Assembly (NCBI GenBank): GCA_963971405.1
Contig: OZ020491.1
Coordinates: 2,238,910 to 2,302,909, forward strand
DNA from: Psococerastis gibbosa
Taxonomy: Eukaryota; Arthropoda; Insecta; Psocodea; Psocidae
Direction of reading: 5' to 3'
DNA: 64,000 nucleotides
Under the pieces are notes generated by a model. That model was not told where the DNA came from and made no database searches. It was given only the letters and a program-made list of their open reading frames with translations. Below are positions 1 through 54,063 of the stretch, in pieces (within the stretch, counting starts at the first letter, position 1; each line of letters begins with the position of its first letter). Position numbers and translations under genes: made by a program.

Positions 1-2132
1 TTGGTTTGGTCGTCCCAGCCAATGGGTGATCGGTCACGTTTCTTCTTACCCTCGAGTAGTTTGTAAAGACAAGCTTGATGCTCGGCAGCGTGTGGTAAGC
101 ATGATCGGAAGAAATTAACAGCTCCCAGAAAGCGTCGTAACTCCGAAATTTTTGTTGGACGGGGAAATTCGCGCATAGCTTTTACTGTGTCGGTAGGTGG
201 GCGAATGCCTTCAGTGTCAACGTGGTAGCCTAAGAAGGTTAGTGCTGATTGTCCAAGTTGACACTTATCGACGTTAATTGTGATGTTATTGCGCTGTAGA
301 CGTCTGAATACCTCCCGTAGGTGTTTGCTGTGGTTTTCTGGAGTTGATGCGATTAGCAAGTCGTCGATATAGCAAAATACGTAATCCAGGTCACGGAAAA
401 TGTTGTCGAGAAATCGTTGAAAGGTCTGTGCAGCATTACGAAGACCGAATGGCATGCGAGGAAATTCGAACAAACCAAATGGTGTGATGATAGCTGTCTT
501 CTCGATGTCTTGAGTAGCCATTGGGATATTGTGGTAAGCTCTAGCGAGGTCGATATGGCTGAAGACGGTTTTGCCGTGAAGAATGTACTGGAAGTCAGTG
601 AGTCGCGGGAGTGGATATCTGTCAGGTTGAGTCACAGCATTGAGCCGTTTGAAGTCTCCGCATGGACGTATTTCGCCGTTTTTCTTCAGTACGATGTGAA
701 GTGGGCTGGCCCAGGCACTACTTGAAGGTCGGCAAATGCCTAAGTCCAGCATTTTTTGAAATTCGGCTTTCGCCAGTTGATAAAACTTGGGCGGAATCGG
801 TCGTGCTTTGCAAGATAATGGTGGTCCTGCGGTCTCCAGATGGTGTACGACGGAGTGTGTGGGTTTGGTGTTGAAATTGAACGGTCGTGTGATGCTGGAG
901 AATTCTTGAAGTATGTCAGCGTAAGGAGATGAGCGGTCAATTGTGTCCAGTAGGACAGAGTCAGCAGCTAAAAGTGAGGCGGGTGTGCTGAGTCCAGTGA
1001 GGCTATCAATAAGCCGTCGTCCATGAACGTCAAGCATAAGCCGAAAATGTTGTAAGAAGTCAGCGCCGATAATTGATTGAGATACTGCTGCTCGAACGAA
1101 GGTCCATTGGAATACTCTTCGTAGACCAAGGTCAAGTTGTATGGTTACTGTACCGTAGGTGTGAATTTTAGTCTTGTTCGCAGCATAGAGTACGTATGGC
1201 GATGGTTGAGATGCTGATGCCCTGGTGGCCAAGACTGAAATTCCTGCTCCGCTGTCGATAAGGAAGGGTTCACCTGAGCACTTGTCTCGGATGCAGAGAC
1301 GACAGGACTTCCCTGCAACTTCGGTCGACGCAACGTAGGTTGCTAGAGAAACGTTTTTCTGTTTGAAAGAGCACGGAAGGGTGCATTTAAGTGCTTGAGT
1401 TCCAAATCGGCAGTGGTAGTAGCACAGTGTGTTTTGATGGTTTGAGTTATTGCACTTTGATTTCGGACGATTTTGTTGGTATTGCGTATCGCGGTCGCGC
1501 GAACTTGCTCGTGAGCGTTCTATGGTTAGGTCTTCAATGCGCTTTTGAAGTTGCTCCAACTTTCCCAGGAGATCTGAGTATGACGGTTGATTGGAGACTG
1601 CGGCGACTGGTTGGACCATCGGTTGATATTGGGCTAAAATTTTGTCAGCGATTGGAGCCAGGGCGTCCAGGTTACCCGAGGCAGCTGACAAAATTGCACG
1701 AACGTGGCCAGGTAATTTTCTCATCCATAAGAATTTTAGCACGGGCTCGGGAATTGCTGACTTCCCGGCTAAGTCCCTGATTCGACAGAGGAGTTGTGTA
1801 GGCTGTAGGTCCCCTAGTTCAAGATTATAGAAGAGCCTTTCAAACCTATTATCCTCGCTTTCTTCATATATGGTGATGAGCCTAGTTTTAATTGCGTCGT
1901 ACTTGCCTGTTGATGGTGGTGATATCAGAATGTCGGTGGCCTGCTCCAGGTCACATTTGTCCAGATGCGCGATGACCAGTTGAAATTGGCTCTCGTCCGA
2001 CGGTTTTGAAGGTCCGATGACAGCTTCGAATTGGGCGAACCATAACGTAGGCCGGTCGCGCCAAAAACTCGGGATGCGGGCGCTGAGGGAAATTCCCGAC
2101 AGACAAGGTGTGATTGCAGTATTATCGTCCAT
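1..2132 (-). CDS. Ty3-type retrotransposon Gag-Pol polyprotein (5' part, runs off the window)
   Basis: Reading the minus strand from the ATG at 2132, the frame stays open for 710 codons to the left window edge. Gag lies first. A cysteine/histidine motif at residues 237-254 (C-YYH-C, then C and C) precedes the protease motif FLIDSGAG (D293-S-G). Reverse transcriptase follows, with SPLH, DLARAYH, FPRMPFGL and the catalytic YIDD box at residues 588-591; the sequence then continues into the connection region. Gag and Pol share one frame with no frameshift or stop between them, which occurs in some Ty3 lineages. Integrase and the 3' LTR lie outside the window. No inactivating mutation is visible in the part present. 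An in-frame stop at 2181-2183 upstream fixes the start region. Confidence 0.9.
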   Translation of the reverse strand, partial: MDDNTAITPCLSGISLSARIPSFWRDRPTLWFAQFEAVIGPSKPSDESQFQLVIAHLDKCDLEQATDILISPPSTGKYDAIKTRLITIYEESEDNRFERLFYNLELGDLQPTQLLCRIRDLAGKSAIPEPVLKFLWMRKLPGHVRAILSAASGNLDALAPIADKILAQYQPMVQPVAAVSNQPSYSDLLGKLEQLQKRIEDLTIERSRASSRDRDTQYQQNRPKSKCNNSNHQNTLCYYHCRFGTQALKCTLPCSFKQKNVSLATYVASTEVAGKSCRLCIRDKCSGEPFLIDSGAGISVLATRASASQPSPYVLYAANKTKIHTYGTVTIQLDLGLRRVFQWTFVRAAVSQSIIGADFLQHFRLMLDVHGRRLIDSLTGLSTPASLLAADSVLLDTIDRSSPYADILQEFSSITRPFNFNTKPTHSVVHHLETAGPPLSCKARPIPPKFYQLAKAEFQKMLDLGICRPSSSAWASPLHIVLKKNGEIRPCGDFKRLNAVTQPDRYPLPRLTDFQYILHGKTVFSHIDLARAYHNIPMATQDIEKTAIITPFGLFEFPRMPFGLRNAAQTFQRFLDNIFRDLDYVFCYIDDLLIASTPENHSKHLREVFRRLQRNNITINVDKCQLGQSALTFLGYHVDTEGIRPPTDTVKAMREFPRPTKISELRRFLGAVNFFRSCLPHAAEHQACLYKLLEGKKKRDRSPIGWDDQT

Positions 2133-2183
2133 AATGTTGATATTAACGCGCACGGTATGTTCGTTTAACGGGGTCACCAATTA

Positions 2184-2491
2184 TGTAGCGGATGGAGTGC
2201 ACTACACTAATAATGTTCTGAAGCACAGGACGATAAACAACACGCGAAATAATAATATCGAGACGAGAATGTATTTATCCAAAACAACACAACAAAACCG
2301 ATTAAATATACAAAATAGATTACTACGAGAAACTAACGTTAAGATTGACCGAATTGCACTGACTGACTGCAGACCCTCTCTCAGCGTTTATAAAAGCCCG
2401 TAGAAAAATCTGGAAGCAACTGGATATTGCAGGAAATATCATTTCTTCGCTAGAACAGGATGGAGACTTCCATGTCCATAAGCTAAGTACA
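2184..2491 (-). repeat. 5' LTR of the Ty3-type element (right boundary tentative)
   Basis: On the minus strand the block starts TGTACTTAGC and ends CCGCTACA, giving TG...CA termini of the expected kind. A TATA-like gcttttataaac lies near 2390 and a CAGTCAGTCAGTGC initiator-like stretch follows it. Just inside the element comes ttggtgaccccgtta (about 2169-2182), a likely tRNA primer binding site that marks the LTR/internal junction. The second LTR is outside the window, so the outer edge cannot be confirmed by comparison and could extend to about 2545. Confidence 0.55.
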
Positions 2492-2608
2492 GAGGACTGT
2501 TCTAGAGGGGTCGCGAGTTGTGGAGTCCGATGTGCAGATACCTGAGTTGCCCCTTATGAACGGGGGTTGTGTGTCCTTGGTTGGCGCGTGTATTGTGTGC
2601 ATACGGCA

Positions 2609-3032
2609 CAGTGTTATCGAGTTACCCCCTGTTAAGTGTGTTATATCAAGCAATATAACACACGTGAAACCCGATAACCAAGCTAACTAGCGTGTTATCC
2701 TAAACGCACTTCTGAGTTGGTAAACTGTGTTATTTAGCTAGCGCTGCGATCGATAGTGGGTTCAGGTTTGACCACCGCCATCGTTGTTTATGTCGATTGA
2801 TTGGAAAACGTGTTTTCAATTTTAAATTTAATTGTATTTATATTGTCAGAAGTCGGAAATTCTTTAAATAATTGAGTTCTGCCACGAACATCCTGACTAA
2901 TACTAACTACGTTGTTTACTCTGTTAAATATTTTCGATATAGCATGATAACTCACTACCCCGAGGTCCGCTCACGATTGTGTGATAACTTGGATAACACA
3001 TCTAACTGCATAACTCGATAACACCAACACTG
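2609..3032. repeat. Possible hAT-like MITE with many internal TAACAC/GTGTTA motifs
   Basis: The left end reads CAGTGTTATCGAGTT and the right end, reverse-complemented, reads CAGTGTTGGTGTTATCGAG, so the two share an imperfect terminal inverted repeat. Between them gtgtta/taacac motifs recur in both orientations, like subterminal transposase sites. I do not see a matching 8-bp target duplication (atacggca on the left, tgaagacc on the right), so the class is uncertain. Confidence 0.35.
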
Positions 3033-3406
3033 TGAAGACCCTAATTGACTCGCCCATAGCTCAATTTAGCTCGCAAATTTGCAAGCATTACTGCAAAAGC
3101 TGATATTTTTAACCATTGAAAACAAAATGGCTGCGAGCGCGTAATTTATTGAGTAACTTCCATGACACTACGAATTGTACTCTAATAGTCGCGCTGAAAA
3201 ACTCGCTAAACCCTGCTACGGTCTATGCAAGAAGTATTACTCCTCAAACTGCCCCATGCAACCAAATAACGGAAACCACCACCAACACAATGGCGGATTT
3301 TAGGCCAGGGAGGTCAGGGGGTCTGGACCCCCCCCCCCTAAAAAAAAATTGAAGGTTGAAATTGAGGCTAGTCGAGGACAGAAGGGAATGGAGGATCCAA
3401 CCCTTA

Positions 3407-3822
3407 GGGGTTGTGCATTAATCACGTGATGTTTTTTGTAACATTTTTAACCCCTCCCTCCCCCTTGGTAATAATAATGGTGAGGTTTAAAACTACCCCC
3501 CTTCCCACCAAAAATCACGTGTATTTTTTAGTACCTATAAAGAATCTTAAAATTTTTATAACAGAATAACTGACGACCGGCAAGTCGAGCCCGGCAGTCG
3601 TCGCGACGCACGAGAACTTCGTTCGTTGCCTGGCAACGGCGAGTCAATATCACTTTACACACCGCTTTTCGGTTTAGAAATCAAGCATTTGACGAAAAAA
3701 TAAATACTCGTGATATCATACTATACCCCGATCCCCCCCCCCCCACCCTCTCCCTTGTGACATTTCGTGATTTTTGCCGAACCCTCCCCTCTTCGAACCT
3801 CACGTGATTAATGGACAGTCCC
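3407..3822. mobile_element. MITE with TTA target duplication (PIF/Harbinger-like)
   Basis: TTA at 3404-3406 and TTA at 3823-3825 flank a 416-bp block. The ends are inverted: left GGGGTTGTGCATTAATCACG, right CGTGATTAATGGACAGTCCC. The attaatcacgtga core is shared by both ends. There is no ORF of note; the interior contains C-rich tracts. It lies just downstream of the last visible EXO1-like exon. Confidence 0.6.
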
Positions 3823-3916
3823 TTAGTGGTTGTTCACCAGAAGAAAGAACCTAACCCCCGTTGTTAAAAAAACAACAACTGAATGGTCGGGTGAAGAGGA
3901 AGATTTATACACTTAC

Positions 3917-4168
3917 AAGGTCATCCGGATCGAACTCACTGACTAGTTCCAAAGTTTTCGGGTGCAAATTTCCAAGCGCCATCATAAAAGCAGTTCTAGG
4001 GTCCTTGATTTGCACGAAAGCAGGTGTCTTGGGCATTTGCTTTCTTTGCAGCGGATCGTACACTAGTTGGTATTGGAAGATTTGATCTGCTGCAACGACA
4101 GCCTGTATATATGGTTCTGTAACAACGAGGGATGGCAGATCCAAAACTTCCGGAAGCGAAGACAACGC
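3917..4168 (-). CDS. EXO1-like exon 5
   Basis: The acceptor is gttaacag and the donor gtaagt; 84 codons, phase 0. It contains [20 protein letters not shown] and [20 protein letters not shown], which correspond to the end of the EXO1 catalytic domain (NNTFLYQLVFDP...ALGN...FEQIDDYNPD). If the donor is not used the protein ends DDLVSV at a stop at 3905-3907. No C-terminal MLH1/MSH2-binding region is visible in the window. Confidence 0.82.
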
Positions 4169-7100
4169 CTGTTAACAACGAAATTAAATCAAATAAACAA
4201 GGCCTCCATCCTAAAATTAATCCTAAATAGTTGAAATAGTCACCTAAACTTTGAAAAAAGTGACCTTTAAGTAACTAGGTTACATCATTGTAAAACCGGG
4301 TCTGGGGTTCCATACGCTAATAAAGAATATAAAATAAATGAACTAAAGTTTGCAGAGCATAAAATTTTTAAATTTAAGGGTGGTGTTTCAATTTTGCCTC
4401 TTATGAATGGGGGTGGCGGGACCTTGTTTGGCCTTTGTATTGTGTGCAGACACCACAATACCATAATGAAATATTACCGCCGGCGACAAATATTTTTTTA
4501 TTGCACGTGATTGAAAGAAAAGCAGTTTTTTAGTAGTTAAAAAAATAAAAAATAAATAAAAAACAATCAAAAAAGTACCTAAATGTAAAAAAATATTTAA
4601 AAATTTACCAAAATGTTACCTACATTGAAAAATGTAACAAATAGTTGAAAAAGTGACCAAATGGAGGCCCTGAATACATAGAAACATAATTTTGCAATAA
4701 TGTTTCTTTGCAATCGTCGGAATTTGAAGTTATGGCGAGCGCCAGAATCACCACGGCGAATCGTTCATTGCCTAAGATACGGATGAGCATCTTACCAAAT
4801 TGAATGACACTTATCATCACGTTTGGCAATAGCTCATGGCTGCCAGCTGCCTATTCAATTGACTTTAATAGAAGCAAGTAAAACTCTGGGCTTACCTTAG
4901 GAATATTCCAAGACAACCCCTGGCAAGGCACTTGGTGGACGAATTTGCAAGCGTTCTCGAGCTCGACGCCAGGCAGAGCGTCGACAAAATCACAGCCTGA
5001 GAGAATGCACATTAGTCGGAATTTAGTGGCCGAAAAATTACAATGAATAACTCCCAAAGAAAGATACAGCTTGCTTTTTTCGATCAGTATTCCATCTCCA
5101 AATCGGTCCATTTTGAACAGTACCTGAAGAATTGTTATCATAATCAGAATAAAGTATATTGATCAGGAGCACAATACCATTGAATATATTGATATAATTG
5201 AATTGAATTGAATAATTGATATAATTAAATATATATAGTGTTATATATTCAATGACAATACAATATAATATATAAGGAAATTATTTGAGGAATAGCGAAA
5301 TTAGAAAGTTTCTTAAAGAGAACGCTAACGGTAGACATTAGATACCCCTAAATTAGTTGATTTTTAAAGGTCACACCAACACATTACCACACAGCAATAA
5401 TGGCAGAGCACGCAATACATCTGAGCGTGAATTTTCTATCATTTAAAAAAAAAAAAAACATTTTTTTGTACAAAACCAAATAGTTATTAGGGAAAGCAAT
5501 TACTCAATTTAACACCTAAAACATGCCTGAAGGAAGAAATAATCGATAGAAAGGTTTCGCAGAAAAATTATATTTTAGCCATTTTTCTTTAAAATTTAGT
5601 TCTTTTTATTTTTTTTTACCCCAGAAGCAACCCCCCGCATTTTGTCAACATTAATAACGACTACAATATATGTGAATTTAAAAGAAATCGTTGGAGCCGT
5701 TTTGGAGAAATAATTTTTGCTTTCCAATTTATACGTAGTATAAGGAAAGCTTTGTGATGGTCGAAATTTTCGATTCCGAGATTTCAACGGATTTACACGT
5801 TTTGAGGTCCCAGGAACCCAAAAAAGTGGTTTTTACAAAATGTCTGTCTGTCGGTCGGTCTGTCTGTTCGTCGATTTCCGGGCAAACTACTCAGTGGATT
5901 TGAGTGAAATTAGGCATGTAGGTTCACAAAAATCATACCTCGGGACCATTTTTTTTTTTTGGGCTAACTCAATTTGGGGGGGGGGGGGGGGTTATTTTCA
6001 AAAAACTCCAAAAAAACGTCTAAAAAAATTATTTCTCAAAAACGGCTCCAACTATTTCTTTTAAATTCTCGTAGATTGTAGTCGTTATTAATGTTGACAA
6101 AATGCGGGGGGTCGCTTGCCCCTTGATAGTTTGCTTCTGGGGGTAAAAAAATAAAAATAACTAAATTTTAATGAAAAAATGACTAAAAAATGCGAAACCT
6201 TTCTATCGATGATTTCTACCTTCAAGCATGTTTTAGGTGTTAAATTGAGTAACGAAACCGGATAGGTTGCTTTCCCAAAAAAATATTTGGTTTTGCCCAA
6301 AAAATTATTTTTTGAAAAAAATGATAGAAAATTCGCGCTCAAATGCATTGCATGCCCTGCCATTATTGCTGTGTGGTAATTAATGTGTTTGTTTGACCTA
6401 TCGAGAATTTACCTCACTTCCAGTGACGTCAGGTGGACAACCGCCCCCCCCCCCCCCCCGAGATATCGGAAATTTAACCATAGGAAAAATATTTGCCATA
6501 AAATTACTAATTTTCTCTATCTAATAATTTTGATAAATTGGAAAGCATGTTCGAGTGAACTCGGACCGGTTCTTTCAGACGTTTTTTGAAAATAAAACCC
6601 CACCAAATTGAGTTAGCCCAAAATAATAAAAAATGGCCCGGAGGTATGATTTTTGTGAACCTACATGCCGAATTTCATCAAAATCGACCGAGTAGTTTGC
6701 CCGGAAATCGACGCACAGACAGAGCGACAGACATTTCGAAAAAAAAAAACACTTTTTTTGGGTTCCTGGGACCTCAAAACGTGTAAATCCGTTGAAATCT
6801 CGGAATCGAAAATTTCGACCATCACAAAGCTTTCCTTATACTACGTATAAATTGGAAAGCAATAATGTCGTGAAGGAATGGACCTAGGCCAACTGATAGT
6901 GGCTCAGTGGTCCCTTGCTGATTGCCAATGACCCCATTGATTTCGGGCATTACTGATATTGTTTCCATATGAAATTTTGACCATTAACAAACTGGTATAC
7001 GTCAACCAACACCGGCTACCAACGATAGTGGACCAGCTGAGACAAGTTTACCATTGACACAATTGAAGAGGCATACATGTCAAGACATGTAGAGTAGTGG

Positions 7101-10100
7101 TACGGACTCCCGAAACGCTGTTAGTAGTAGTAGTAGTAGTGTTCGTCGGGTTAATAACGACTTAGGCCTCATATTTGGGCCCATAGAGCGACCCCGACTT
7201 GACTATCCTACGCCAGCCCGTAGGACAGTGGACCTCCAGATTATAGTGGATTCCGAACCACTTGGGAAACACAGTGAAGTCACACGATTAGTTCGGAGGT
7301 GACCAGGACAAGTCCTACCATGTTTCCCTGCCGGCACTGTGCACAAGACCAAGTTATCTGCAGCTTTGAACCTTCAACTAGGTATGGAGGCCGGCCCGAA
7401 AGGGTGTTGGTTCGAGTCCTACACTTCCTAAATTTCCTGGACATGCTTCGGAGGGCATGTAAAGCAGGCGGTCCCGGGTCTTCCTAGTTGAGTGTAAAGG
7501 AGAGCTTTATGGCCCTAACTCCGCTAGGTTGGCTTAGTAATAGAACAAAAAGTACTTATTTATTTATACGCATGACTTCACCAAGATTGGGTTAGAGTCA
7601 CGGCAGTATGCTAATTTAGCGAATACTTACAGCTTTACAACCATATACTAAGAGAGCAGGGTCATCGGTGATTACTAAATCAGCGATATTTTGCAAATTT
7701 AAGTACGCCAGCTGGGCACCGGCCTCATACGGCGCCACTATGCAGTCCACATTGATTTTGCGGCACTCCTTTATGACTTCAGCGACCATTTCGAATGTAA
7801 CTTCCACAGCACGCCGTAGCACGTGCTTTCCCTCCTTGGTGCTACCTGCTGTCAGCAAATCCTGTCCCTCTTTGCGGTGTCGCTCTCTACTTCTGCAATG
7901 CATGAACGTCACGTAAGATAAGCACTGTAACACCCTCTGCGCAGCCCAATGGAGTTCTATATAGGAGAGAGGGGACTCTTCCCGTCAAAAAGAAATTTTT
8001 TAATTTCCAAAGCCACCCGCCACGTCTCCTAGGATAAACCATTGAAAAAATGTGACAAGTTGCCCCAGACATTTTTGGTGGGAGCGAATGTCTCATCTCT
8101 CTTACATAGAACTCTACAGACGACCTGGCCCACTGCCCTGCCCTACAATAGAACAGCGCTGACGGCGTATCCATGAGGCATGGCGTCAAATACCTGAACA
8201 AAAATCGGCTTCGATGGCAAGGTGGTACTTATGCTTGTACTTTCTACTCGTAACTCAACACGGGTACTAACCTACAGAGGCGACTAAAGAGGTGAATCGG
8301 ATACATTCATTACATTGTTAGCATGCGATTAACCTTTTCATTTAAAAAAAGCTAAAGATAGGCATTGGTTACAGAAGTAGATAAGCCTTTAACATTGATG
8401 CTTCATGGAAATGATGCCATACAAGGCCCTTAGGTGCCCATTCCATTGACCGGCAAGGGCTATTTCCAAAAACGGTGACGTGGTAGCAGACATTCAAGAC
8501 CTAGGTGGCGTTTCCAACGACCTCGCATTGCAGAATTGACGGAAATGTTTATTTTCCTCTATGCCATAGTTAAAATTGATCAATGATTATACAGTAAAAT
8601 CACAAACTAAAACTAAAAAATGGCGTCATGGGATATGTTAAGTACAAACATTTTAATAGATTTCTATAAAAAGAAAAATTCTAATTTCCGTCAATGTCAT
8701 TTGCATTCTGCAATGCGAGATCGGTGGAAACGCAACCTAAGTCTTGAATGTCTGCTACCACGTCACTGTTTTTGGAAATAGCCCTAGCCGATCAATGGAA
8801 TGGGCGCCTTAACAGAGAATCGCTCCGGTCCACGCTCTAGGGGAGACGTCGCGCCGGTTCAAACGATTTTCTTTGATTGTCGGGGTACCACACACGACCA
8901 CTCCAATGACGCAAGAGCACAGGGCAAGTTTTGATCTTATCTTGGAAATACCTGAGCCACAATTTTCAAAGAACAATTTTTTGATTATTATTTTGATCAG
9001 AATTATGATCCTAAAGTAGAGTATTATCTTGATTAAACTAAATAAAACTTGCAAACATCAATTTTGACAAAGGCCATCCCTGGATCACTCCAAAATAGGT
9101 TGGTTTATATTTTATATTTAAGTTAATACTCAAGTTATGGCCATTTGTATACAATTGGTGAAGGACTACTTCATATACCATATTATAAGTAATTATTATA
9201 TATATAATTATTATATATGTATTATATTATATTATTATAGGTTATAATATAAGGTGCTTGTTAGGGGGCTATTCCACTGGGCAATTTTACTTTAAATTTG
9301 ATTTTGTCATCGACGTTTGTTTTGTTTTAAGGAGACTATTATGTAGATACTTAACGTATCTATTATAAATTAAGTTATAATATGGTAGCAGACATCATGG
9401 ATAAGTCTCTACCATATTATAACTTAATTTATAATAGATACGTTAAGTATCTACATAATAGTTTCCTTAAAAAAAAAAAAACGTCAATGACAAAATCAAA
9501 TTTGAAGTAAAATCGCCGGTGGAATACCTGCCTTATTTTTGTTGTTATGTTTCCATGAATTGACAACTTGCATATAGAATTACCTGATGTGATTGGGTTG
9601 CTAACTCCCAATTATAGAGCCCTAGATTAACTTATGGAGAATCAACTGCTATTTCGTTATATAATGAATAAAGTGATATACGATAATATGTCCTCTTTCT
9701 ATAAGTTCATCATAGGCGTTAGTTTTGGGAATTGACCACTCAATCAGAGGAGGGCAATTTTCCACATTGTTTTTTCATTTTATTTCTGTACGGTATGCAA
9801 GTTGTCCATTTGATAATGAAAAAGTTGCTCATAGTACTACTAGTATGGGTTGTAAAAAATAATCCTCTGCTAATTGAAAGCCGAAATCTATAAAAAATAT
9901 AAGCCAACCTATTTTGGTGCAATCCATGTGACCAATGCCAACATTCAACGAAAACTTAAATGCTGGCCTTGATCCTTGTTCTGCGCATGTGTCAGGACTT
10001 AGTCGAATTGGCTCTAACCCTCCAACGAGAAAGGTGTACAACTTACAAGTTCCTGAATTTTAAAATATAGCCTAAAAGTAAAACCTCCAGCACTCATTTT

Positions 10101-13100
10101 TATCAATAGCTTTTCATGGTCCTTAAACATTATTACAAGCCTAATTGCAACCAGTATGTACTGGATTTTGATTATAGCATACCTACCTATAGGTTTTACT
10201 TTTAGGCTATATTTTTAAATTCTGGAACTTGTAAGTTGTACACCTCCCTCGTTGGAGGGGTAGAGCCAATTGGACTAAGTCCTGACACATGCGCAGAACA
10301 AGGATCAAGGCCAGCATTTAAGTTTTCGTAACATTCAGGTTCCTCTTAGGTACTTACGCGCGCCTTCTCAGCTCAGTTTTATAATTAACGGGTAAATGTT
10401 GCCCATAGAAGACAAGGATTGGTTTAATACCATTAGAAAGCAGCATATGAACATATTTCATGCAGTATGACACATATCTGAAACAACAAATTATAATAAT
10501 AATATTAAGTCTTTGGCTAGCAAGTTATAATCATAGATTATGGTTATTTCTTGTAAGGACTTTTTATGGACCCAGGCCTCCTTTCAGTACCAACACCGGG
10601 TACAATCAATAAGTTACATCAGTTATATTCATGCCATTTCAAACTAGCTAGGGCTAGCTTGAAGGCGTCGTCTAAAACAAAATAATAATAAATAAATAAA
10701 GAACACAATCACCGTAATATCGGGCTCGTCAAACATTCCTTAACCGAGTAGGGAACTTGTTCCAACAGTAGCCGATGGACGGCCCCGGAAAAAACCTTTA
10801 CCCCATCCAGTGTCCTAATCTCCCGGGTTAGCTTGTCAAACAACCGGATACACATCTCCCTAGGAGACCTAAGGGTAGCCGTCGGACGACTGTTCACCCG
10901 TAGGAAACAGTCCCTATTTCTGGTCCCATAGGTATGGGTATTACCTGATCTGGGGGGTGGGTTTTTCCGCAAGTGCACTAATGTCTCCAAGATATATAGA
11001 GCGGGTAGAGTTAGTATACCAAATTCCCTAAATAAGGGCCGGCAAAATACTCTTTGGTCTTTCATACACGCAATGGTTCTAATAGCCCTCTTACGTAAGC
11101 GGAAAACCCGGAGGGAGTCAGTTGAGTTACCCCTACAGATAATGCCATATCGGATGTGACTTTCAAAAAGACCAAAGTACACAAGTCTTAGCGAACGATT
11201 GTCCATAAAAAATGAAATATTTCTAAGTCGGAAGTTTATGGATCCAAGCTTATGGCATAATGTATTAATTTTGGTTTTTCCAATTAAGGTGCTTGTCCAG
11301 CTCAACTCCTAAAAAACCAACCGAATCGCTCTCAGTCAGGGGAACATCATCCACCCTTAATAATGGGCTCCTTTCAACAGGCTTTCTACCAGCAAACAAT
11401 GTAAAGGAGGTCATTCCTAGGTTGAGAACAAGTTTGTTAGAAAAAATGCCAGTTCCTTGCGATAATTACCATTGACGCAATGAAACAGGCGAAAGCATGA
11501 TTTAACCAAGTACAGATATGAGTCTTATAATAATCATAGATGCCAAGCAAAATAAACAAGAGACATCCGAAAGATAATAATAAAATACGTTTATTTAAAA
11601 AAAAAAAATGAACATTGCTTCTATATGTAAGCCCCAATAAATCAGTCAGGACATGCAGAGTAGTGGTACAGACTCCCGACTTGGACTTGGACTCCCGAAG
11701 TGGAATACTCGAGAAGTGGATGACTTAATAGTGGAAGTGGTTGTTTTTTTATAAGGCGCCCATTCCACCGACCGGCTAGGGCTATTTACAAAAACAGAGA
11801 CGTGGTAGCAGACATTCAAGAATTAGGTGGCGTTTCCACCGACCTCGCATTGCAGAATGCAAATGACATTGACGGAAATTAGAATTTTTCTTTTTACAGA
11901 AATCTATTAAAATGTTTATACTTAACATATCCCATGACGCCATTTTTTAATTTTAGTTTGTTTGTGATTTTACTGTATAATCATTGATCAATTTTAACTA
12001 TGGCATAGAGGAAAATAAACATTTCCGTCAATTCTGCAATGCGAGGTCGGTGGAAACCCCGCCTAAGTCTTGAATTTCAGCTACCACGTCACTGTTTTTG
12101 TGTATATAGCCCTAGCCGGTCGGTGGAATGGGCGCCTTAGCATTCGTGCTATTTCTCCAAACACTGCTACTGTTGGGTTATGCCTTGGATCGGTTTTAAA
12201 TTTATAGATAAAAAAATATCACACTTTGAATTAATATTGTGTATTCGCCATCTTTGTAGCAAGGAAGTAAAAAAAACATTGTAAACTCTAAACAGTGTCA
12301 CAGACAATGTCATAGACAAACAAAAATATTATTAAATTAATATTTATTTTCATTATTATTATTTTTAATTTTATTATTATTTTATTATGAAATAGCAAAA
12401 ATTATAATTTAAAAAATTTATTTCAACATCCTCCCCTTAATTTTTGCATGAATAATTAAATTCCTAAATTCTTTGTACCTTTTAAATATCTTAAAGTTCT
12501 TTTTACATCGGAAACATTATCAGTTTTAGGTTCAATACAACGACTTTCATAATTCACACTGAAAGTTATATCTGGTCGTGTTTTAGTAGAACAATATAAG
12601 AGACTACCGACTGCTTCGCGGTATGGAAAGGATATATTTTTACTGTTATCTGACTTTTGATTACATATTGGAGTTTTAACAGAATTTGCTTCCGACATAT
12701 TATAAGTTTTAAGCATGTTTTCAACATATTTCTCCTGGCTAATTTTTATACCAGCTTTAGTTCTCAAAATTTCAATACCTACATATTTCTTTATGTCTTT
12801 GTTATAGGTAACTTCGCAAAGTTTGCTTAGCTTTTTTACAAAATCATTCAACATCAATTCATTTTTACTTATTATTAATCCATCATCAACATGAATTGAA
12901 ATTATCAAGCTTTTATCAGTATTACAATAAATACAAGGATCTGATTTTAATCTCTGTAAACCAATCGATAATAAATAATCATTCAACTTAGAATTCCACA
13001 ATGCTGGAGATTGTTTAAGTCCGTACAATGACTTTTTTAATAGACATACTTTGTCTTTGTTTTTAGCGTTTTTAAATCCTTCCGGAATATGCATAAAAAT

Positions 13101-16100
13101 TTTCTCATTAAGATCGCTATTTAAAAATGCAGATTTTATATCAAATGAAGCAATTAGCATTTTTTTCTTTGCTGCTAAAGCAAATAACAATCGTAAACTA
13201 TTTGAATCTACCACTGGACTAAATATATCGGTAAAATCTATGCCATTTTCTTGTTCGAAACCTCTTACAACGAGTCTGGCTTTAAAAGTATTATTATCTT
13301 TTTTGCGAAAAATCCAGCGAGAAGTCAAAATCTTATTATTTTCAGCTTCTGCTTTTGGAATATAAATCCAAGTTTTATTAGAAATCAACGATTCTTTCTC
13401 CTTCTCTACAGCATCTACCCATTCTTTACATTCATTGCCTTTTACGGCTTCTTCAAACGTTAAATATACGCTATCATCAAATAGATCAGTTAAATTAGTT
13501 TCACAATCATCAAGTGTAGCAGGTTTCCGTAGATTAATTCTACTTCTTAATTTATAAGGGTATTCCTTTGGAGTTTCAGGTTCTGATTCAGACTCACCGT
13601 CAGCATCATTTTCACTGATTATTTCCTCCACAGATTCATTGACTCTACGTGGGCTCACTTGGTGCTTGTCTGATTCAGACTCTGAATCCTTGAAAAATTC
13701 TGAAACATTAAAATCAAGTTTTACCATTTCTTCAGGTTTTAGCTTATTTTTAATTTTAAGTGAATTTTCAGGAAAAATAACATCCCTAGAAATAACAATC
13801 TTTTTAATGTTTGGGTCAAACAAACGATAACCATTATGATTATAACCAACGAATATCAATTTTCTTGATCTTTCATCAAGCTTCTTAACACGAGGTAGAA
13901 TTTTGGCATAAGCTTCAGAACCAAAAATTTTTAAATTTTTTAAATCTGGTCTTTTTCCAGTCCAATTTTCTATAGGCGTTGCCTTGCTATTAACTGTTGG
14001 ACTGCGATTAAGTAAAAAACAACTTGTCTTAGCCGCTTCACTCCATAAATTTTTATTAACATTACTATCAAAGAGTAAACTTCTTATTTTTTCAGTAATT
14101 GTCCGATTTAATCTTTCTGAACGAGGGTTCATTTGAGGACTATAACTAGCAGTTACATCAAAAAATATTCCTCTATTATAAAACCATTGTTTTAATGGCA
14201 GGTATTCACCTCCACCGTCACATTTAAATCTGCATACTTTTAAACCTTTTTCATTTTCGGCTCGCAAAATAAAATTTTTTATAACATTTGCTGCGTCTGA
14301 TTTTGCTTTTATAGGATGTACTTCACTATAACACGTAAAATCATCAATTATTGATACATAATATTTGCATTGATCAATAGATTCAATTTCAAAGGGACCT
14401 TCGACGTCACTATGAATTATTTCGAGCATTCGAGTAGCACGCTTTAAATTTCCACTAAAGGGATCACGAGCATGTCGAGCTTTAATACAAATTTCACAAT
14501 TTTTAATATCTAAAGAATTTTTAGTTATTTTTATTCCATCTGACATTGTTGCAAGTCTTTGCAAATTTTTAAAACTAATATGACCTAATTTTCTATGCCA
14601 TTCATAAATGTCGTCATAATCATTCACAGAAAAAATATTTTCTCTATTTTTTAAATTTTGGTTTTTACCATATTTTAAATTAACAACGAACAAACCGTTA
14701 TTTTCTTTACCTTCCATGACAGTTTCGAATTTTGAATTAATAATTTCTACGTTTCCTTTTGAAAATAATACAAACCCACCTTTATCGGTGATTTTTTTAA
14801 CAGAAAGAAGATTTTGAGATAACTCCGGTACGTAAACTACATTGTTTAATGTCACACTCTCACTCTTTAATGTTCCTATGGCCGTTCCAAATAAGGATTC
14901 ATTCTTTTTTGCTAAACTGAATTTTGATATTGCAGGATTACTATTCTCAAGACAATTTAAATTATTAACTAAATGTTTACTTGCTGCACTATCGACAGCT
15001 AAGCTAATACTTTTATTATTATTAAAGTAATTGGAATTTTTAGATACCAAAAAAACTTTATTATTATTGCTGTCACCATTTTCTCTATTTCTGTTACGGA
15101 AAAAACACTCTGAGGATCGGTGCGAATTCCTCTTTTTACAAATTCCGCAATAAAGCGTATTTCTTTCATCTCTAGCTTTTTTAAAACATTTTTCAATCCT
15201 ATGATTTCTTAATTTGCAATACGTACAGAAAAGTTCATTTTTATTTTTAAAATTAGAATTAGATAGAGTACTTTTACCTTGGGCTAGTGTTTTGAATGCT
15301 ACTGAGTTGATTCCACATCGTTCGTCCTCTAATTGAAGGCGAGAAAAAAGATTGGCAAGCGTCTTATCTTTTGCAGTGACTGACTCCCAAGCACTTCTGA
15401 AGGCGTTGAATTTTTCGGGAAGAGAAGATACAATCTTTGTTACAACCATCTCGTCTGTTAACTTTTCTCCCAATGAAGCTAGTCTATGGATAATTATTTT
15501 TATTTCAGCAATTCCCTTGTTGACATCTTCCAATTTAAAGTTGTAAAAATCCGTTAGAAGAGAACATTTTTGTTGATGAGTGTCCTTATTGTAGAGATCA
15601 TTTAATGCTTTATACATTTCGGCTGATGTTGTACATGTTAGTAAATGCACAATTTGGCTGCTATCCACTGAGGTTACAATTAGTCGTTGAGCTTTTATGT
15701 CAGTTTTTATCCACGATGTATCATCTTTTTTATCCTTGGTAAGGATACTTGGTAAAGGTTCCGTTCCGGTTGCAATGTCGTACGCATATATCGATTTTAA
15801 GATGACATCTATTTGAAATTTCCACGTGAGGTAGTTTGGACCATTTAATTTTTCAATTTTTACGTCTTCGGGCATGGTGTACTGGTAAGATTAGGTTACA
15901 CAAGCACTTTGCACACGCGACAATTTTAATTATTATTTTTAATTTTTCTTTTTAATTGATTTTACGGAACATCTTGGTTTCCCGATTTATCTGGGCCCAT
16001 AACCTGTTGGGTTATGCCTTGGATCGGTTTTAAATTTATAGATAAAAAAATATCACACTTTGAATTAATATTGTGTATTCGCCATCTTTGTAGCAAGGAA

Positions 16101-16686
16101 GTAAAAAAAACATTGTAAACTCTAAACAGTGTCACAGACAATGTCATAGACAAACAAAAATATTATTAAATTAATATTTATTTTCATTATTATTATTTTT
16201 AATTTTATTATTATTTTATTATGAAATAGCAAAAATTATAATTTAAAAAATTTATTTCAACAGCTACTACTAGATTCTCCAACTTCTAATCATTGATCTC
16301 AGTTTTAGCAATTAATTTGAAGCCGGAGGAAATTTATATACGGTAGCTAATTACAAGTGAGTGGCCTGAAGAGTATACCTCCTAAGTCGACTGACTGCAG
16401 GGGACACTGTTCTGTTAACTCAGCTATTTGTCACCTCCATAACGGACGCATTTAATTTATAACTGAAATTATAAAAAAATAGGAAGGCAAAAAATACTAA
16501 CTGTGTGGTAGGCTGTTTCAAAACAAGCTTGTCAGCAACTTCAATCGCGCCCCGGTGCAGCCAGCAATGAGCATCGATTGCTACGGTCCGTCCTGTGTAC
16601 TCCTTAATATTAATAGGTCGTGAACTTTTTTCCAAAAACAGAAGTAAATTTGAAGTGCTAATTCTAATGTCTTTACACCTCGCCAT
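3917..16686 (-). CDS. EXO1-like protein, predicted catalytically impaired (five exons, 3' end not resolved)
   Basis: Five minus-strand exons (16502-16686, 10358-10477, 7631-7892, 4896-5123, 3917-4168) have GT-AG borders and matching phases and join to 349 codons without a stop. The product follows the XPG/FEN1-family nuclease core of exonuclease 1, a 5'-3' enzyme of mismatch repair and end resection. Family signatures seen are [51 protein letters not shown] and QYQLVYDP. Relative to human EXO1, metal ligands D30, E150, D171 and D225 are kept. D78 is Tyr86, D152 is Gly160, D173 is Ala181, and K85 is Asn93. The N-terminus carries about eight extra residues and lacks the family's MGI start. The clean exons argue against a simple dead pseudogene. 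After exon 5 a strong donor (gtaagt) suggests further exons to the left; read-through would instead stop three codons later. Confidence 0.8.
4896..5123 (-). CDS. EXO1-like exon 4
   Basis: The acceptor is tcttcag and the donor gtaagc; 76 codons, phase 0 at both ends. [19 protein letters not shown] is followed by [19 protein letters not shown], which matches KMDQFGNG...[17 protein letters not shown] in EXO1. Ligand D225 is present. The H3TH region after it is diverged: the glycines that contact DNA backbone are only partly kept ([11 protein letters not shown]). Confidence 0.87.
5380..6860. repeat. Large palindromic repeat family (A'-B-A-C-B'), copy 1
   Basis: Blocks are arranged as inverted copies. 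A' (about 5380-5700) is the reverse complement of A (6065-6385), and B (5730-6060) is the reverse complement of B' (6585-6860). B begins at a short palindrome, tatacgtagtata, and contains a (gtct)n tract and gaggtcccaggaacc. C carries a long C run then gagatatcggaaattt. Similar A'-B-A-C copies lie at 62880-63985 and, without A', at 51245-52090. No coding domain is recognised; short ORFs here are repeat-derived. Confidence 0.75.
6875..7075. repeat. Dispersed repeat W, copy 1
   Basis: The stretch with attgtttccatatg, acaaactggtatacgtc and accattgacacaatt recurs in diverged form at 52095-52215 and 53885-53990. Its class is unknown. No ORF is supported. Confidence 0.45.
7079..7550 (+). repeat. 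tRNA-Glu-derived SINE, interrupted copy
   Basis: The head (gtagagtagtggtacggact, 7088-7107) is separated from the body (7393-7550: cccgaaaggg, ggttcgagtcc, ggagggcatgtaaagc, ctccgctaggttggct) by about 280 bp that is absent from other copies and starts with a (tag)n tract. Full copies are listed at other positions. Confidence 0.7.
7631..7892 (-). CDS. EXO1-like exon 3
   Basis: The exon runs from acceptor gcattgcag to donor gtaagt; 262 bp, phase 2 to phase 0. It encodes the helical gateway region ([13 protein letters not shown]...) and the internal nuclease core [18 protein letters not shown] with [13 protein letters not shown]. Glu158 and Asp179 match E150 and D171. Gly160 replaces D152 and Ala181 replaces D173, the residue whose alanine mutant is the classic nuclease-dead EXO1. 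Confidence 0.88.
7951..8113. mobile_element. Palindromic MITE of the ctatataggagaga family
   Basis: The left end agttctatataggagaga and right end tctctcttacatagaact are inverted. A central gccacgtctcctaggataaa is shared with related copies at 23609-23755, 25797-26041, 27597-27706, 39716-39893 and 56861-57229. It sits just upstream of EXO1-like exon 3, in the intron. Confidence 0.6.
8203..8345 (+). repeat. SINE-like repeat 2
   Basis: It begins cttcgatggcaaggtggta and ends with tcggatacattcatt and gcgattaacctttt, then an A-rich run. Related copies lie at 30064-30240, 36605-36775, 54617-54775 and 59503-59680, with a 3' fragment at 27776-27875. An A-box-like ggtggtagcgtgcttg is present in fuller copies; no clear B box. 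Confidence 0.65.
8433..8808. mobile_element. PIF/Harbinger-like MITE H, copy 1
   Basis: TTA (8430-8432 and 8809-8811) flanks a 376-bp element with long inverted ends: GGTGCCCATTCCATTGACCG on the left, and the right end closes aatgggcgcc. The arms carry gacgtggtagcagacattca and tcgcattgcagaatt. Copies at 11755-12136 and 27206-27587 have the interior in the opposite orientation. It lies in the EXO1-like second intron. Confidence 0.75.
9264..9532. mobile_element. PIF/Harbinger-like MITE, subfamily 2 (near-perfect palindrome)
   Basis: TTA flanks both sides. The ends are ggggctattccac and gtggaatacctgcc. The arms contain ttaaggagactattatgtag and its inverse, and the centre reads atggtagcagacatcatg. 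Related ends occur at 25186-25743 and 39484-39615. Confidence 0.65.
9939..10340. repeat. Inverted repeat with arms of about 145 bp beside EXO1-like exon 2
   Basis: The left arm (9939-10087) and right arm (10194-10340) are reverse complements with few mismatches. They share aaaacttaaatgctggcc, tgcgcatgtgtcaggactta, gtgtacaacttacaagttcc and tatagcctaaaagtaaaacc. About 106 bp separate the arms. It is probably a foldback or MITE; no target duplication was seen. Confidence 0.75.
10358..10477 (-). CDS. EXO1-like exon 2
   Basis: The acceptor is ttgtttcag and the donor gtaagt. The 120-bp exon completes codon 62 and encodes [19 protein letters not shown] followed by [10 protein letters not shown]. 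This aligns with YVGFCMKF...ILVFDG of EXO1. The metal-binding aspartate of the VFDG box is Tyr86 and the usual catalytic lysine is Asn93, while the arginine equivalent to R92 is kept (Arg100). A 400-bp inverted repeat ends some 17 bases past its donor. Confidence 0.85.
10706..11470 (-). pseudogene. 3' part of a Jockey/CR1-like non-LTR retrotransposon reverse transcriptase
   Basis: The 198-codon frame at 10709-11305 holds [48 protein letters not shown] and a stop, the usual C-terminal thumb region of Jockey-type ORF2. A short stretch further upstream in another frame (to about 11470) has [10 protein letters not shown] and [14 protein letters not shown] of the same domain, so at least one frameshift lies near 11305. 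The catalytic palm and endonuclease are absent, so the copy is 5'-truncated and dead. It sits in the EXO1-like first intron. Confidence 0.75.
11755..12136. mobile_element. PIF/Harbinger-like MITE H, copy 2
   Basis: It has the same ends and interior as the copy at 8433-8808 but in inverted orientation: left GGCGCCCATTCCACCGACCG, right aatgggcgcc followed by TTA. The left flank is TAA rather than TTA. The Copia element begins only 35 bases to its right. Confidence 0.72.
12171..12428 (-). repeat. 3' LTR of the Copia element
   Basis: Minus-strand sequence starts TGTTGAAATAAA and ends AACCCAACA. It is preceded on that strand by the purine tract (12429-12441). I saw no difference from the other LTR. 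Confidence 0.95.
12456..15875 (-). CDS. Copia Gag-Pol polyprotein lacking RNase H
   Basis: This is a single ORF of 1139 codons. It holds a UBN2-type Gag at the N-terminus, zinc knuckles at C217-C220-H225-C230 and C243-C246-H252-C257, and protease VDSAASKHL with D295; the usual Gly after D-S is Ala. The integrase has H427, H432, C460, C463, then D490, D553 and E587. Reverse transcriptase holds [26 protein letters not shown] and HVDDGLI (D997, D998). The frame ends [14 protein letters not shown] and stops, where Copia proteins normally continue into RNase H with its DAD/SSTEAEY motifs. Only about 30 bases then precede the 3' LTR, so the domain is deleted rather than frameshifted. Such an element probably needs help in trans. 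Confidence 0.93.
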   Translation of the reverse strand: MPEDVKIEKLNGPNYLTWKFQIDVILKSIYAYDIATGTEPLPSILTKDKKDDTSWIKTDIKAQRLIVTSVDSSQIVHLLTCTTSAEMYKALNDLYNKDTHQQKCSLLTDFYNFKLEDVNKGIAEIKIIIHRLASLGEKLTDEMVVTKIVSSLPEKFNAFRSAWESVTAKDKTLANLFSRLQLEDERCGINSVAFKTLAQGKSTLSNSNFKNKNELFCTYCKLRNHRIEKCFKKARDERNTLYCGICKKRNSHRSSECFFRNRNRENGDSNNNKVFLVSKNSNYFNNNKSISLAVDSAASKHLVNNLNCLENSNPAISKFSLAKKNESLFGTAIGTLKSESVTLNNVVYVPELSQNLLSVKKITDKGGFVLFSKGNVEIINSKFETVMEGKENNGLFVVNLKYGKNQNLKNRENIFSVNDYDDIYEWHRKLGHISFKNLQRLATMSDGIKITKNSLDIKNCEICIKARHARDPFSGNLKRATRMLEIIHSDVEGPFEIESIDQCKYYVSIIDDFTCYSEVHPIKAKSDAANVIKNFILRAENEKGLKVCRFKCDGGGEYLPLKQWFYNRGIFFDVTASYSPQMNPRSERLNRTITEKIRSLLFDSNVNKNLWSEAAKTSCFLLNRSPTVNSKATPIENWTGKRPDLKNLKIFGSEAYAKILPRVKKLDERSRKLIFVGYNHNGYRLFDPNIKKIVISRDVIFPENSLKIKNKLKPEEMVKLDFNVSEFFKDSESESDKHQVSPRRVNESVEEIISENDADGESESEPETPKEYPYKLRSRINLRKPATLDDCETNLTDLFDDSVYLTFEEAVKGNECKEWVDAVEKEKESLISNKTWIYIPKAEAENNKILTSRWIFRKKDNNTFKARLVVRGFEQENGIDFTDIFSPVVDSNSLRLLFALAAKKKMLIASFDIKSAFLNSDLNEKIFMHIPEGFKNAKNKDKVCLLKKSLYGLKQSPALWNSKLNDYLLSIGLQRLKSDPCIYCNTDKSLIISIHVDDGLIISKNELMLNDFVKKLSKLCEVTYNKDIKKYVGIEILRTKAGIKISQEKYVENMLKTYNMSEANSVKTPICNQKSDNSKNISFPYREAVGSLLYCSTKTRPDITFSVNYESRCIEPKTDNVSDVKRTLRYLKGTKNLGI
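15990..16004 (-). other. Copia primer binding site (initiator tRNA-Met, internal)
   Basis: Directly inside the 5' LTR the minus strand reads ggttatgggcccaga. This matches the half-tRNA primer site known for Drosophila copia, where an internal fragment of initiator tRNA-Met primes synthesis. Confidence 0.85.
16005..16262 (-). repeat. 5' LTR of the Copia element
   Basis: A 258-bp repeat with TGTTG...CAACA ends, followed on the right by the duplicated target GCTAC. Confidence 0.95.
16502..16686 (-). CDS. EXO1-like exon 1
   Basis: The exon encodes residues 1-61 and two bases of codon 62. It contains [19 protein letters not shown] followed by [15 protein letters not shown], matching the N-terminal half of the EXO1 nuclease domain; D38 corresponds to ligand D30. 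The Met at 16686 gives a start (MARCKD...) unlike MGI. The donor is gttagt, phase 2. A missed tiny upstream exon carrying the usual start is possible. Confidence 0.75.
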
Positions 16687-21110: not shown

Positions 21111-21164
21111 TTGTCAGGAATGGGTATACATGTTTCTTTTTATGTTGCAGTGAAATAAAATATC

Positions 21165-22805
21165 ATGTCCACGATAGAACATCTGCCAACTGAGATAATG
21201 GTCAATATATTCGAGCAGCTCAACCTGCGGGACCGAAAACACTGTCGACTTGTGTGCCGACGATGGTTACAACTCAATTATTACCCCGCCGTCGTCAAGG
21301 ACGACGTCCTCGTCGTCGACTATCACGGTCTGCAAAAGTACACGTCTCCCAACATTGGCAATATAGCCAAAGTCCGGATCTATGTAAAAGACGGCCGGAA
21401 AACAGACAGGGTACGCCGAAAGTTCTTCGAACGCTACCACCAGAATGTCAGTTACGTGCATATGATATTCCATAGGACGTGGCGCGATCCGCTGTCGGAT
21501 ATTTTTGAGTACTGGAAAAGTGTACAGCATTTGGTGATTGGTCAAAAGGGCTGCGATGCCGATAATTCAGACTGCCAAAAATTCAATCTTGCCCAAAGTG
21601 CCACTAAACTACGTCGGAAAGCCCACCATCCGTGCGGTGGCAAATGTGGAGGCCTTACATCGGTGCCAGCTGGTAATTTACGTAAACTAGATTTGTATTC
21701 TGTGAGGTGCCAGCACCTGTTGAAATGTATCATGAACTCGGCAAGTGGGGTAACATCTCTAGAAGTCGGAACAAATTGCAGTGATAGTAAAGGTTATATA
21801 TACACGTTTTTACATAAACAGGCTAATGATCTGAAAGAGTTTGCGCTTGATGACGATAAAACTTTTGTTAAAGCTAAAACATCTCATGTTTATGAATTAA
21901 TGGACGCAAAATTAACTTCTCTGTCTCTAAGAGGTCGCGCTACTGAATATGATCCCATTCCCGATGCGGATCTTCGAGAGTTTGAGAATCTAAAAAAGCT
22001 GTCGCTGTCACATTTTAAATTTTCAAGAATCGTTCTAGCTTCACTGCTTTCAAAGATGCAATGCTTGACTCATGTCTATATAAGTAGTTGTGATGCTAGG
22101 GACGATAGGGATTTGGTACCGTTGCAGACTCTTAGACCTAACCTGACTTGTTTTATGCTAGAACAAATGTCGGTTTCTTGTATTCAGTTACAGCGTATGA
22201 TTGGCCACGAGTCGTGGCCAAAAATGAAATGTTTTCGGCTACACAATATCGTCTCGCTTCGTATTGATAAGTTTATCGTATTTTTAGCACCTCGTTGTCC
22301 TAATCTTGAAATACTAGATATCGGTAACTGTAAAATAACAGATCTTGGTTTGAAGGCAATCTGTAGAAATAATCCCAAATTACTATCGCTTACACTGCCG
22401 GATTTCGGGGCTTTCACCAGTAAATGCACCCTGTTGAAAGAACTTTCCTATATCGAAACTTTAGCGAATGATTTAGGCAATTGTCAAATGACTATATTGC
22501 AAAAAATTCAACGTACTCTTAGCTGTGTTGATAGCAAAAAGATTAGAATTATTTTGCTGAGGACTGATAACTATGATGCAGATGTCAGTTTACTTAAGGA
22601 CGATTTACGGGCGTTGAAGGCACTTTTTAAAACGAACCCTAGCTTGGAGTATATAGCGAGTAGTTGTATGGGCGATACGACCTACAGCAGATTTTCTGAG
22701 CGTTGTTGGTTTTTTAGGAAAGTTAATAGGGATTTGAAATTTGAAAACTATTCGTATCACTGCGGGATGCCTTGGTATGGTCTGCCGGCTATTATAAGAC
22801 GTTGA
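21165..22805 (+). CDS. F-box and leucine-rich-repeat protein
   Basis: An uninterrupted 546-codon ORF. Residues 4-45 form an F-box (IEHLPTEIMVNIFEQLNLRD, then RLVCRRW), the SKP1-binding module of SCF ubiquitin ligases. From about residue 165 onward irregular leucine-rich repeats follow (LRKLDLYSVRCQHLLKCI, LTSLSLRGR, LKKLSLSHFKFSR, LEILDIGNCKITDLGLKAI, PKLLSLTLPD), as in FBXL substrate receptors. The role is inferred: substrate recognition for ubiquitination. The ATG follows 14 bases after a ttgcag that could be the acceptor of an intron in the 5' leader. The CDS itself has no intron, unlike its neighbours. No ortholog is assigned. Confidence 0.88.
   Translation: MSTIEHLPTEIMVNIFEQLNLRDRKHCRLVCRRWLQLNYYPAVVKDDVLVVDYHGLQKYTSPNIGNIAKVRIYVKDGRKTDRVRRKFFERYHQNVSYVHMIFHRTWRDPLSDIFEYWKSVQHLVIGQKGCDADNSDCQKFNLAQSATKLRRKAHHPCGGKCGGLTSVPAGNLRKLDLYSVRCQHLLKCIMNSASGVTSLEVGTNCSDSKGYIYTFLHKQANDLKEFALDDDKTFVKAKTSHVYELMDAKLTSLSLRGRATEYDPIPDADLREFENLKKLSLSHFKFSRIVLASLLSKMQCLTHVYISSCDARDDRDLVPLQTLRPNLTCFMLEQMSVSCIQLQRMIGHESWPKMKCFRLHNIVSLRIDKFIVFLAPRCPNLEILDIGNCKITDLGLKAICRNNPKLLSLTLPDFGAFTSKCTLLKELSYIETLANDLGNCQMTILQKIQRTLSCVDSKKIRIILLRTDNYDADVSLLKDDLRALKALFKTNPSLEYIASSCMGDTTYSRFSERCWFFRKVNRDLKFENYSYHCGMPWYGLPAIIRR

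Positions 22806-54014: not shown

Positions 54015-54063
<49 letters not shown>

Follow-up and report, generated by a model that had tools for sequence, protein, structure and literature searches.

Whether a nuclease gene that has lost part of its catalytic centre can persist as a protein-coding gene, and in what capacity, is the question raised by an EXO1-like gene on the minus strand of a 64,000-nucleotide stretch of the Psococerastis gibbosa genome (C19:2238910-2302909, contig OZ020491.1; hereafter the window, whose positions are used below unless a contig is named). The gene under study is called the C19 paralogue, and its orthodox counterpart, on another contig, is called C1 EXO1. The genome comprises 409 Mb in 68 contigs, the C19 paralogue being located on a contig of 35 Mb. 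The best explanation, favoured with somewhat better than even confidence, is that the C19 paralogue is a non-catalytic EXO1: dead as a nuclease, still selected, and serving a non-catalytic role of which partner docking would be the leading form.

Structure, identity and active site of the C19 paralogue

The C19 paralogue occupies positions 3917-16686, where five minus-strand exons (16502-16686, 10358-10477, 7631-7892, 4896-5123 and 3917-4168; phases 0, 2, 2, 0 and 0) were joined into 1047 nucleotides encoding 349 residues with no stop codon. GT donors were present on all five exons and AG acceptors on exons 2-5; the donor of exon 1 was GTTAGT and the remaining ones GTAAGT or GTAAGC, that of exon 5 (GTAAGT) leading to an exon 6 beyond the window. 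The XPG I region starts in exon 3, and homology to the nuclease domain ends in exon 5. In a phmmer search against the PDB, human EXO1 was matched over residues 12-347 (E = 6e-82), the leading entry from outside EXO1, an XPG/FEN1 chimera, reaching 1e-15, and the Pfam domains XPG_N (64.6 bits) and XPG_I (56.0 bits) both exceeded their cut-offs. Identity with human EXO1 was 145/330 residues in one alignment and 142/332 in another; the number of identities was 142 with human, 141 with fly, and 94 and 102 with two yeast sequences, a pattern pointing to an animal genome (all but the human sequence being provisional). In a tree, the C19 paralogue paired with C1 EXO1 to the exclusion of the (provisional) fly sequence with 99% support.

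A protein search of the genome (E up to 1) produced 11 matches, of which five fell in the C19 paralogue, five at C1:28439312-28442250 and one at the FEN1 locus; no third EXO1 copy was found by this search. The orthodox EXO1 (C1:28439300-28442250) begins with MGITGL and carries the full set of seven metal ligands as well as K85 and the GVG motif, and the C19 gene is therefore a second copy. The intron phases of the two genes are the same, and exons 2 and 3 are of equal length in both; relative to C1 EXO1, exons 1 and 4 of the C19 paralogue are longer by 24 (owing to the upstream start) and 12 nucleotides, and exon 5 is shorter by 21. Introns 1-4 are 727-6024 nucleotides long in the C19 paralogue relative to 76-913 in C1 EXO1, partly because retrotransposons have inserted: a Ty1/copia-type open frame with gag, integrase-linked and RVT_2 domains (12456-15890, minus strand) is found in intron 1, outside the protein, and a second frame, pol-like by eye (3-2180, minus strand), lies in intron 5 between exons 5 and 6 and continues past the window start. 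The fraction of guanine plus cytosine at codon positions 1, 2 and 3 was 0.547, 0.352 and 0.456 in the C19 paralogue, 0.552, 0.384 and 0.410 in C1 EXO1, and 0.33-0.38 in C19 introns 1-4.

Several other origins were considered and rejected. Orthodox exons hidden in the C19 introns were not found, as tblastn of the C1 protein against the window recovered the five exons and otherwise weak matches only (E >= 0.059), and a processed (retro) pseudogene is contradicted by the four introns kept at the same phases as in C1 EXO1. Duplication of the whole chromosome is disfavoured because a neighbouring gene, of the CCCH zinc-finger type, has a 138-amino-acid exon for which no second full copy was found (14 matches for this one exon of one neighbour: itself, 12 within query residues 3-48 and one over residues 3-77). 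One scan of viral contigs gave no relatives.

Four of the seven metal ligands are kept in the C19 paralogue (human numbering throughout): D30, E150 and D171 (the latter two in exon 3), and D225 in exon 4. The other three are replaced, D78 by Tyr (TAT, 10405-10407, exon 2), D152 by Gly (GGT, 7718-7720) and D173 by Ala (GCT, 7655-7657, both in exon 3), as is gateway residue K85, by Asn (AAT, 10384-10386, exon 2), with gateway residue R92 present in the same exon. All changed codons were verified by direct read-back from the DNA, and misalignment is not the cause, since C1 EXO1 has D78, D152, D173 and K85 with identical intron phases. Further losses in exon 1 comprise M1I (ATT, 16660-16662) and G2S (16657-16659), which together read ATT AGC (16657-16662) and remove the N-terminal Met-Gly, Y32H (16567-16569) and A41E (16540-16542; Ala in human and Ser in C1 EXO1), and those in exon 4 are G234E (4962-4964, turning the GVG of C1 EXO1 into GVE) and K237N (4953-4955). 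An ATG in frame (16684-16686), eight codons upstream of the human Met1 position, would serve as the start codon, and the N-terminus is therefore extended. The second glycine of the H2TH motif, human G234, is thus Glu; we take it to be yeast G236 on the basis of a provisional yeast sequence in which D78, K85, D171, D173 and K185 are numbered correctly. Retained positions include K185 (exon 4), H36, R92, K61 and an aromatic residue (Tyr) at 58. At 60 sites common to C1 EXO1, human EXO1 and human FEN1 the C19 paralogue keeps 45, and at the 30 of these also common to human GEN1 it keeps 24; both sets were drawn from genome rows and PDB-confirmed rows aligned alongside provisional ones. A supporting count of 49 out of 69 invariant sites rests on provisional fly and yeast sequences, and one of the 49 is M1, for which the new start Met was counted.

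Published mutants indicate what these changes would mean. D78A and D173A each singly abolish the activity of human EXO1 (PMC12049449), and K85A causes a strong defect (PMC10153752). By comparison with these human and yeast mutants, the C19 paralogue is almost certainly catalytically dead. The sequence-only reading had described five cleanly spliced exons of an EXO1-like paralogue with this set of four kept and four replaced residues, had stated that D173A abolishes human EXO1 nuclease activity, and had proposed that activity was lost; the structure, identity and residues were all confirmed, the statement agrees with PMC12049449, and the proposal is well supported by analogy with the three mutants. 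DNA binding is probably impaired too, given the changes at the H2TH glycine and at position 41 in the wedge and the loss of Met1-Gly2 and Tyr32. Glu41 is the same change as in the yeast wedge mutant S41E, which, like G236D, reduces crossing-over, and exo1-D173A,G236D shows very weak DNA binding (PMC10153752). Human K237, Asn in the C19 paralogue, has alternatively been taken as the counterpart of yeast G236 (PMC12049449).

Divergence and constraint

The two copies are identical at 195 of 337 residues (58%), and differ at 113, 83 and 215 first, second and third codon positions, respectively, and at 66 of 94 shared fourfold sites. A codon model gave a nonsynonymous divergence (dN) of 0.31, with the synonymous divergence (dS) unbounded (saturated); fixing dS cost about 20 log-likelihood units at a dS of 2 and about 8 at a dS of 4. 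When changes were polarised by human EXO1, 52 fell to the C19 paralogue and 18 to C1 EXO1 (this count and that of the invariant sites were made over 333 columns, after dropping columns gapped in either copy or in human EXO1), and the corresponding branches in the protein tree were 0.50-0.57 and 0.14-0.17. Judged from these comparisons, the C19 paralogue is evolving faster than C1 EXO1 but is far from unconstrained. Its share of dN would be about 0.23-0.25. For a dS of 2 or more and equal mutation at the two loci, its synonymous branch would be no shorter than 1, which would put its lifetime-average omega (dN/dS) below about 0.25.

This ratio was measured against a saturated paralogue, and such an average can mask a late release from selection; neutral decay was therefore simulated, using the present C1 EXO1 sequence as a stand-in for the ancestor and 3000 runs per setting. 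When insertions and deletions were excluded, loss of at least 15 of the 60 conserved sites with no stop codon occurred in at most 0.0063 of the runs at any setting; at the 12 settings that included them (at 5% or 10% of substitutions), no run gave this outcome. Because decay that left the gene free of disablement was rare in the simulation, and because length changes are in-frame only, most of the losses at conserved sites must date from a time when the frame was being maintained. An old neutral pseudogene was rejected on the saturated dS with a dN of 0.31, the simulation, and the absence of stops and frameshifts in 349 codons; by these sequence criteria an old pseudogene is unlikely, and the C19 paralogue is probably, with good confidence, still under selection as a protein. 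The retained function suggested by the sequence-only reading is thereby supported against long neutral decay, by dN and by the simulation, and stops short of proof, dN/dS being available only relative to the saturated copy.

The tail, its possible partners and the rival explanations

The C19 paralogue extends beyond position 3917. The next exon, which runs downwards from C19:2236537, was found 6.3 kb on, beyond the intron-5 retrotransposon and 2.4 kb past the edge of the window; it has an AG acceptor, is in phase 0 and reads GSMQPINPTRAPHKSIWTIDG, and the next frame of C1 EXO1 reads IRASHKSIWSGSF. A patch with the letters HKSIW is common to both (RAPHKSIWT in C19, RASHKSIWS in C1), with an alignment score that 5 of 5000 shuffles attained. 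In the real 24 kb region HKSIW occurs once, whereas 300 first-order randomisations of that region did not contain it on the same strand. As a genome-wide protein search with C1 exon 6 (E up to 1) matched only C1 itself, the evidence for the exon 6 assignment consists of its location, its phase and this short match. By position and by the letters SIW (S369-I370-W371 in a provisional human sequence), HKSIW is a candidate equivalent of the site of human W371. In human EXO1, a cluster at 369-375 just behind the nuclease domain, W371 included, binds MSH4, and the W371E change weakens MSH4 binding and eliminates the stimulation of MutSgamma-MutLgamma, leaving the nuclease untouched (PMC12049449). 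Downstream of exon 6, a single-copy frame of 369 codons with internal near-repeats (C19:2232835-2233941), which had no Pfam match over the 321 residues scanned, is a candidate for the next, C-terminal exon of the gene.

The genome gave 10 matches to the MutS ATPase at four loci and three matches to MutL. Judged by eye and from characteristic signatures, the four MutS loci resemble MSH2, MSH6, MSH4 and MSH5, and the MutL matches resemble MLH1, PMS2 and perhaps PMS1. The MSH4-like gene (C13:28553023-28554995) reads GPNQSGKS and DELCRGTS, with Cys where the MutS motif (DELGRGT) has Gly.

From this material, a course of events can be proposed in which an old, intron-keeping duplication at the DNA level gave rise to the C19 paralogue, which would then have lost its two-metal active site together with some of the surface that handles DNA and stayed protein-coding. 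Its folded nuclease domain would provide a platform, and the tail that follows this domain would use the HKSIW patch to dock onto EXO1 partners (MutS-type proteins), the docked protein being either a structural subunit or a competitor limiting active EXO1. Provided that the C19 paralogue is selected as a protein, the chances that it acts by docking are put at about even, by analogy with known EXO1 mutants. Nuclease-dead EXO1 can still serve as a structural component: Exo1 D173A mice have normal meiosis and nulls are infertile (PMC9371890), and D78A and D173A are irrelevant to MutSgamma-MutLgamma stimulation (PMC12049449). By this analogy the C19 paralogue looks like the nuclease-dead structural part of EXO1 made permanent. 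A bolder version, in which the two EXO1 jobs are split between genes, C1 keeping the nuclease and C19 being a dedicated structural EXO1 in MutS/MutL-type complexes, is tentative and rather unlikely; such a protein might perhaps join the meiotic crossover machinery without cutting, the two genes forming a natural separation-of-function pair.

A number of observations weigh against a docking, non-catalytic protein. The stimulation of MutSgamma-MutLgamma by human EXO1 depends on the residues that contact DNA (PMC12049449), and G234E sits where yeast G236D lowers crossing-over (PMC10153752), both of which argue against the C19 paralogue being a simple EXO1 stand-in for the MutSgamma-MutLgamma role. 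The losses were not significantly concentrated in the active-site and DNA-contact set, 10 of 18 such sites being kept compared with 113 of 157 other sites shared by C1 and human EXO1 (Fisher P 0.18) or with 37 of the 47 among these that are also conserved in FEN1 (P 0.07, not significant), and a hydrophobic bias among the changes (12 of 17) was not significant either (P 0.12). Compared with a provisional human tail sequence, C19 exon 6 shares only SIW (3775 of 5000 shuffles) and C1 exon 6 likewise gave no significant match (1174 of 5000). No in-phase join from exon 6 to the 369-codon frame is proven, and that frame has no similarity to the stretches of the C1 locus searched. MLH3 was not recognised among the three MutL matches, in a search that reads exons singly and can miss genes.

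A first alternative is a pseudogene, a C19 copy that was functional for long and died recently, its open frame left over. The replaced start Met-Gly, the longer branch, the retrotransposon frames in introns 1 and 5, and the fact that losses were not significantly concentrated in any set tested all point that way, but the reading is judged improbable in view of 349 codons free of stops and frameshifts, GT-AG borders at all four joined introns, an upstream ATG whose context fits the Kozak rule, and the rarity of comparable outcomes in the decay simulation, a very recent death that followed the loss of the active site retaining some probability. A second alternative, also with a low probability, is a DNA-binding competitor or nick protector, dead but binding nicks and flaps and shielding them from active EXO1, ligase and other nucleases. 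Such a role has been proposed for yeast Exo1 in meiosis, where metal-site mutants support near wild-type crossing-over (PMC10153752), and K185, H36, R92, K61 and Tyr58 are kept in the C19 paralogue; Glu41 and Glu234, at the positions of the yeast changes that lower crossing-over and, as D173A,G236D, leave very weak DNA binding (PMC10153752), and K237N as well, argue against it. For the same reason, the 'DNA structure binding' suggested by the sequence-only reading has become less likely, and docking, as subunit or as competitor, is preferred to DNA shielding because DNA-contact positions are also changed; the earlier interpretation is supported, its emphasis being shifted accordingly from DNA binding to docking. 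Catalysis retained through a rearranged metal site, or on another substrate such as RNA, would draw on D30, E150, D171 and D225 but is highly improbable, given that a single D78A or D173A suffices to kill human EXO1 (PMC12049449) and that D152 and K85 are gone too. An assembly or base-calling artefact has a negligible probability, no supporting point having been found against a coherent gene, 58% identical to C1 EXO1, on a 35 Mb contig and near a neighbouring gene whose tested exon occurs in full only once in the genome.

Neighbouring sequences and known systems

Elsewhere in the window, plus-strand frames at 40235-56506 contain acidic, Arg-rich and Pro-rich stretches flanking CCCH zinc fingers, with a match to PF22623 (KIAA1064-like) at 41956-42369; by resemblance, they are presumably of the ZC3H4/suppressor-of-sable type. 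An open frame of 548 codons matching F-box and leucine-rich repeats is located at 21159-22805 (plus strand). A short repeat frame occurs in several copies (5744-6064, plus strand; 6575-6835, minus strand; 51245-51500, both strands; 63137-63424, plus strand), two of which are inverted around 5744-6835, within intron 3 of the C19 paralogue.

The separability of the structural role of EXO1 from its nuclease has so far been studied with engineered yeast, mouse and human mutants. If the non-catalytic explanation is true, the long persistence in nature of an EXO1 that lacks nuclease activity, next to an intact-looking copy, would provide an independent test of that separability, and the non-cutting job of EXO1 may have received its own gene; what was kept (K185, H36, R92, HKSIW) relative to what was given up (the metals, position 41, the H2TH glycine) would then point to the surfaces needed for that role. 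No nuclease-dead EXO1 paralogue was found in a literature search covering open-licence PMC papers and the top of longer result lists.

Of known systems, EXO1 itself (Rad2/XPG family; human structures 3QE9 and 3QEA) shares with the C19 paralogue the XPG_N and XPG_I domains and is its best PDB match, and C1 EXO1 further shares the intron phases and the HKSIW patch; the differences are the replaced D78, D152, D173, K85, G2, Y32 and H2TH glycine and the eight extra N-terminal residues. Engineered dead EXO1 (D173A and D78A, in human, mouse and yeast) lacks the same metal ligands and keeps a structural meiotic role (PMC10153752, PMC12049449, PMC9371890), whereas the C19 paralogue is natural, stands beside an active-looking copy and carries further changes, including some at DNA-binding positions. 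Arabidopsis EXO1A and EXO1B likewise represent two EXO1 paralogues per genome, although active-site loss is not mentioned in the excerpts of the paper available (PMC4191939), the comparison being by description only. The Mkt1/ASTE1/FAM120 group has the Rad2/XPG fold, and roles beyond DNA cutting are reported for Mkt1 and FAM120A; it is, however, proposed as a separate group, a branch of its own marked by an extended C-terminal half, with nuclease activity reported for ASTE1 and FAM120B (PMC12345631). The C19 paralogue, in contrast, is a duplicate within the EXO1 branch, with EXO1 as its best PDB match, and would, if the explanation favoured here is true, be a pseudo-nuclease inside that branch.

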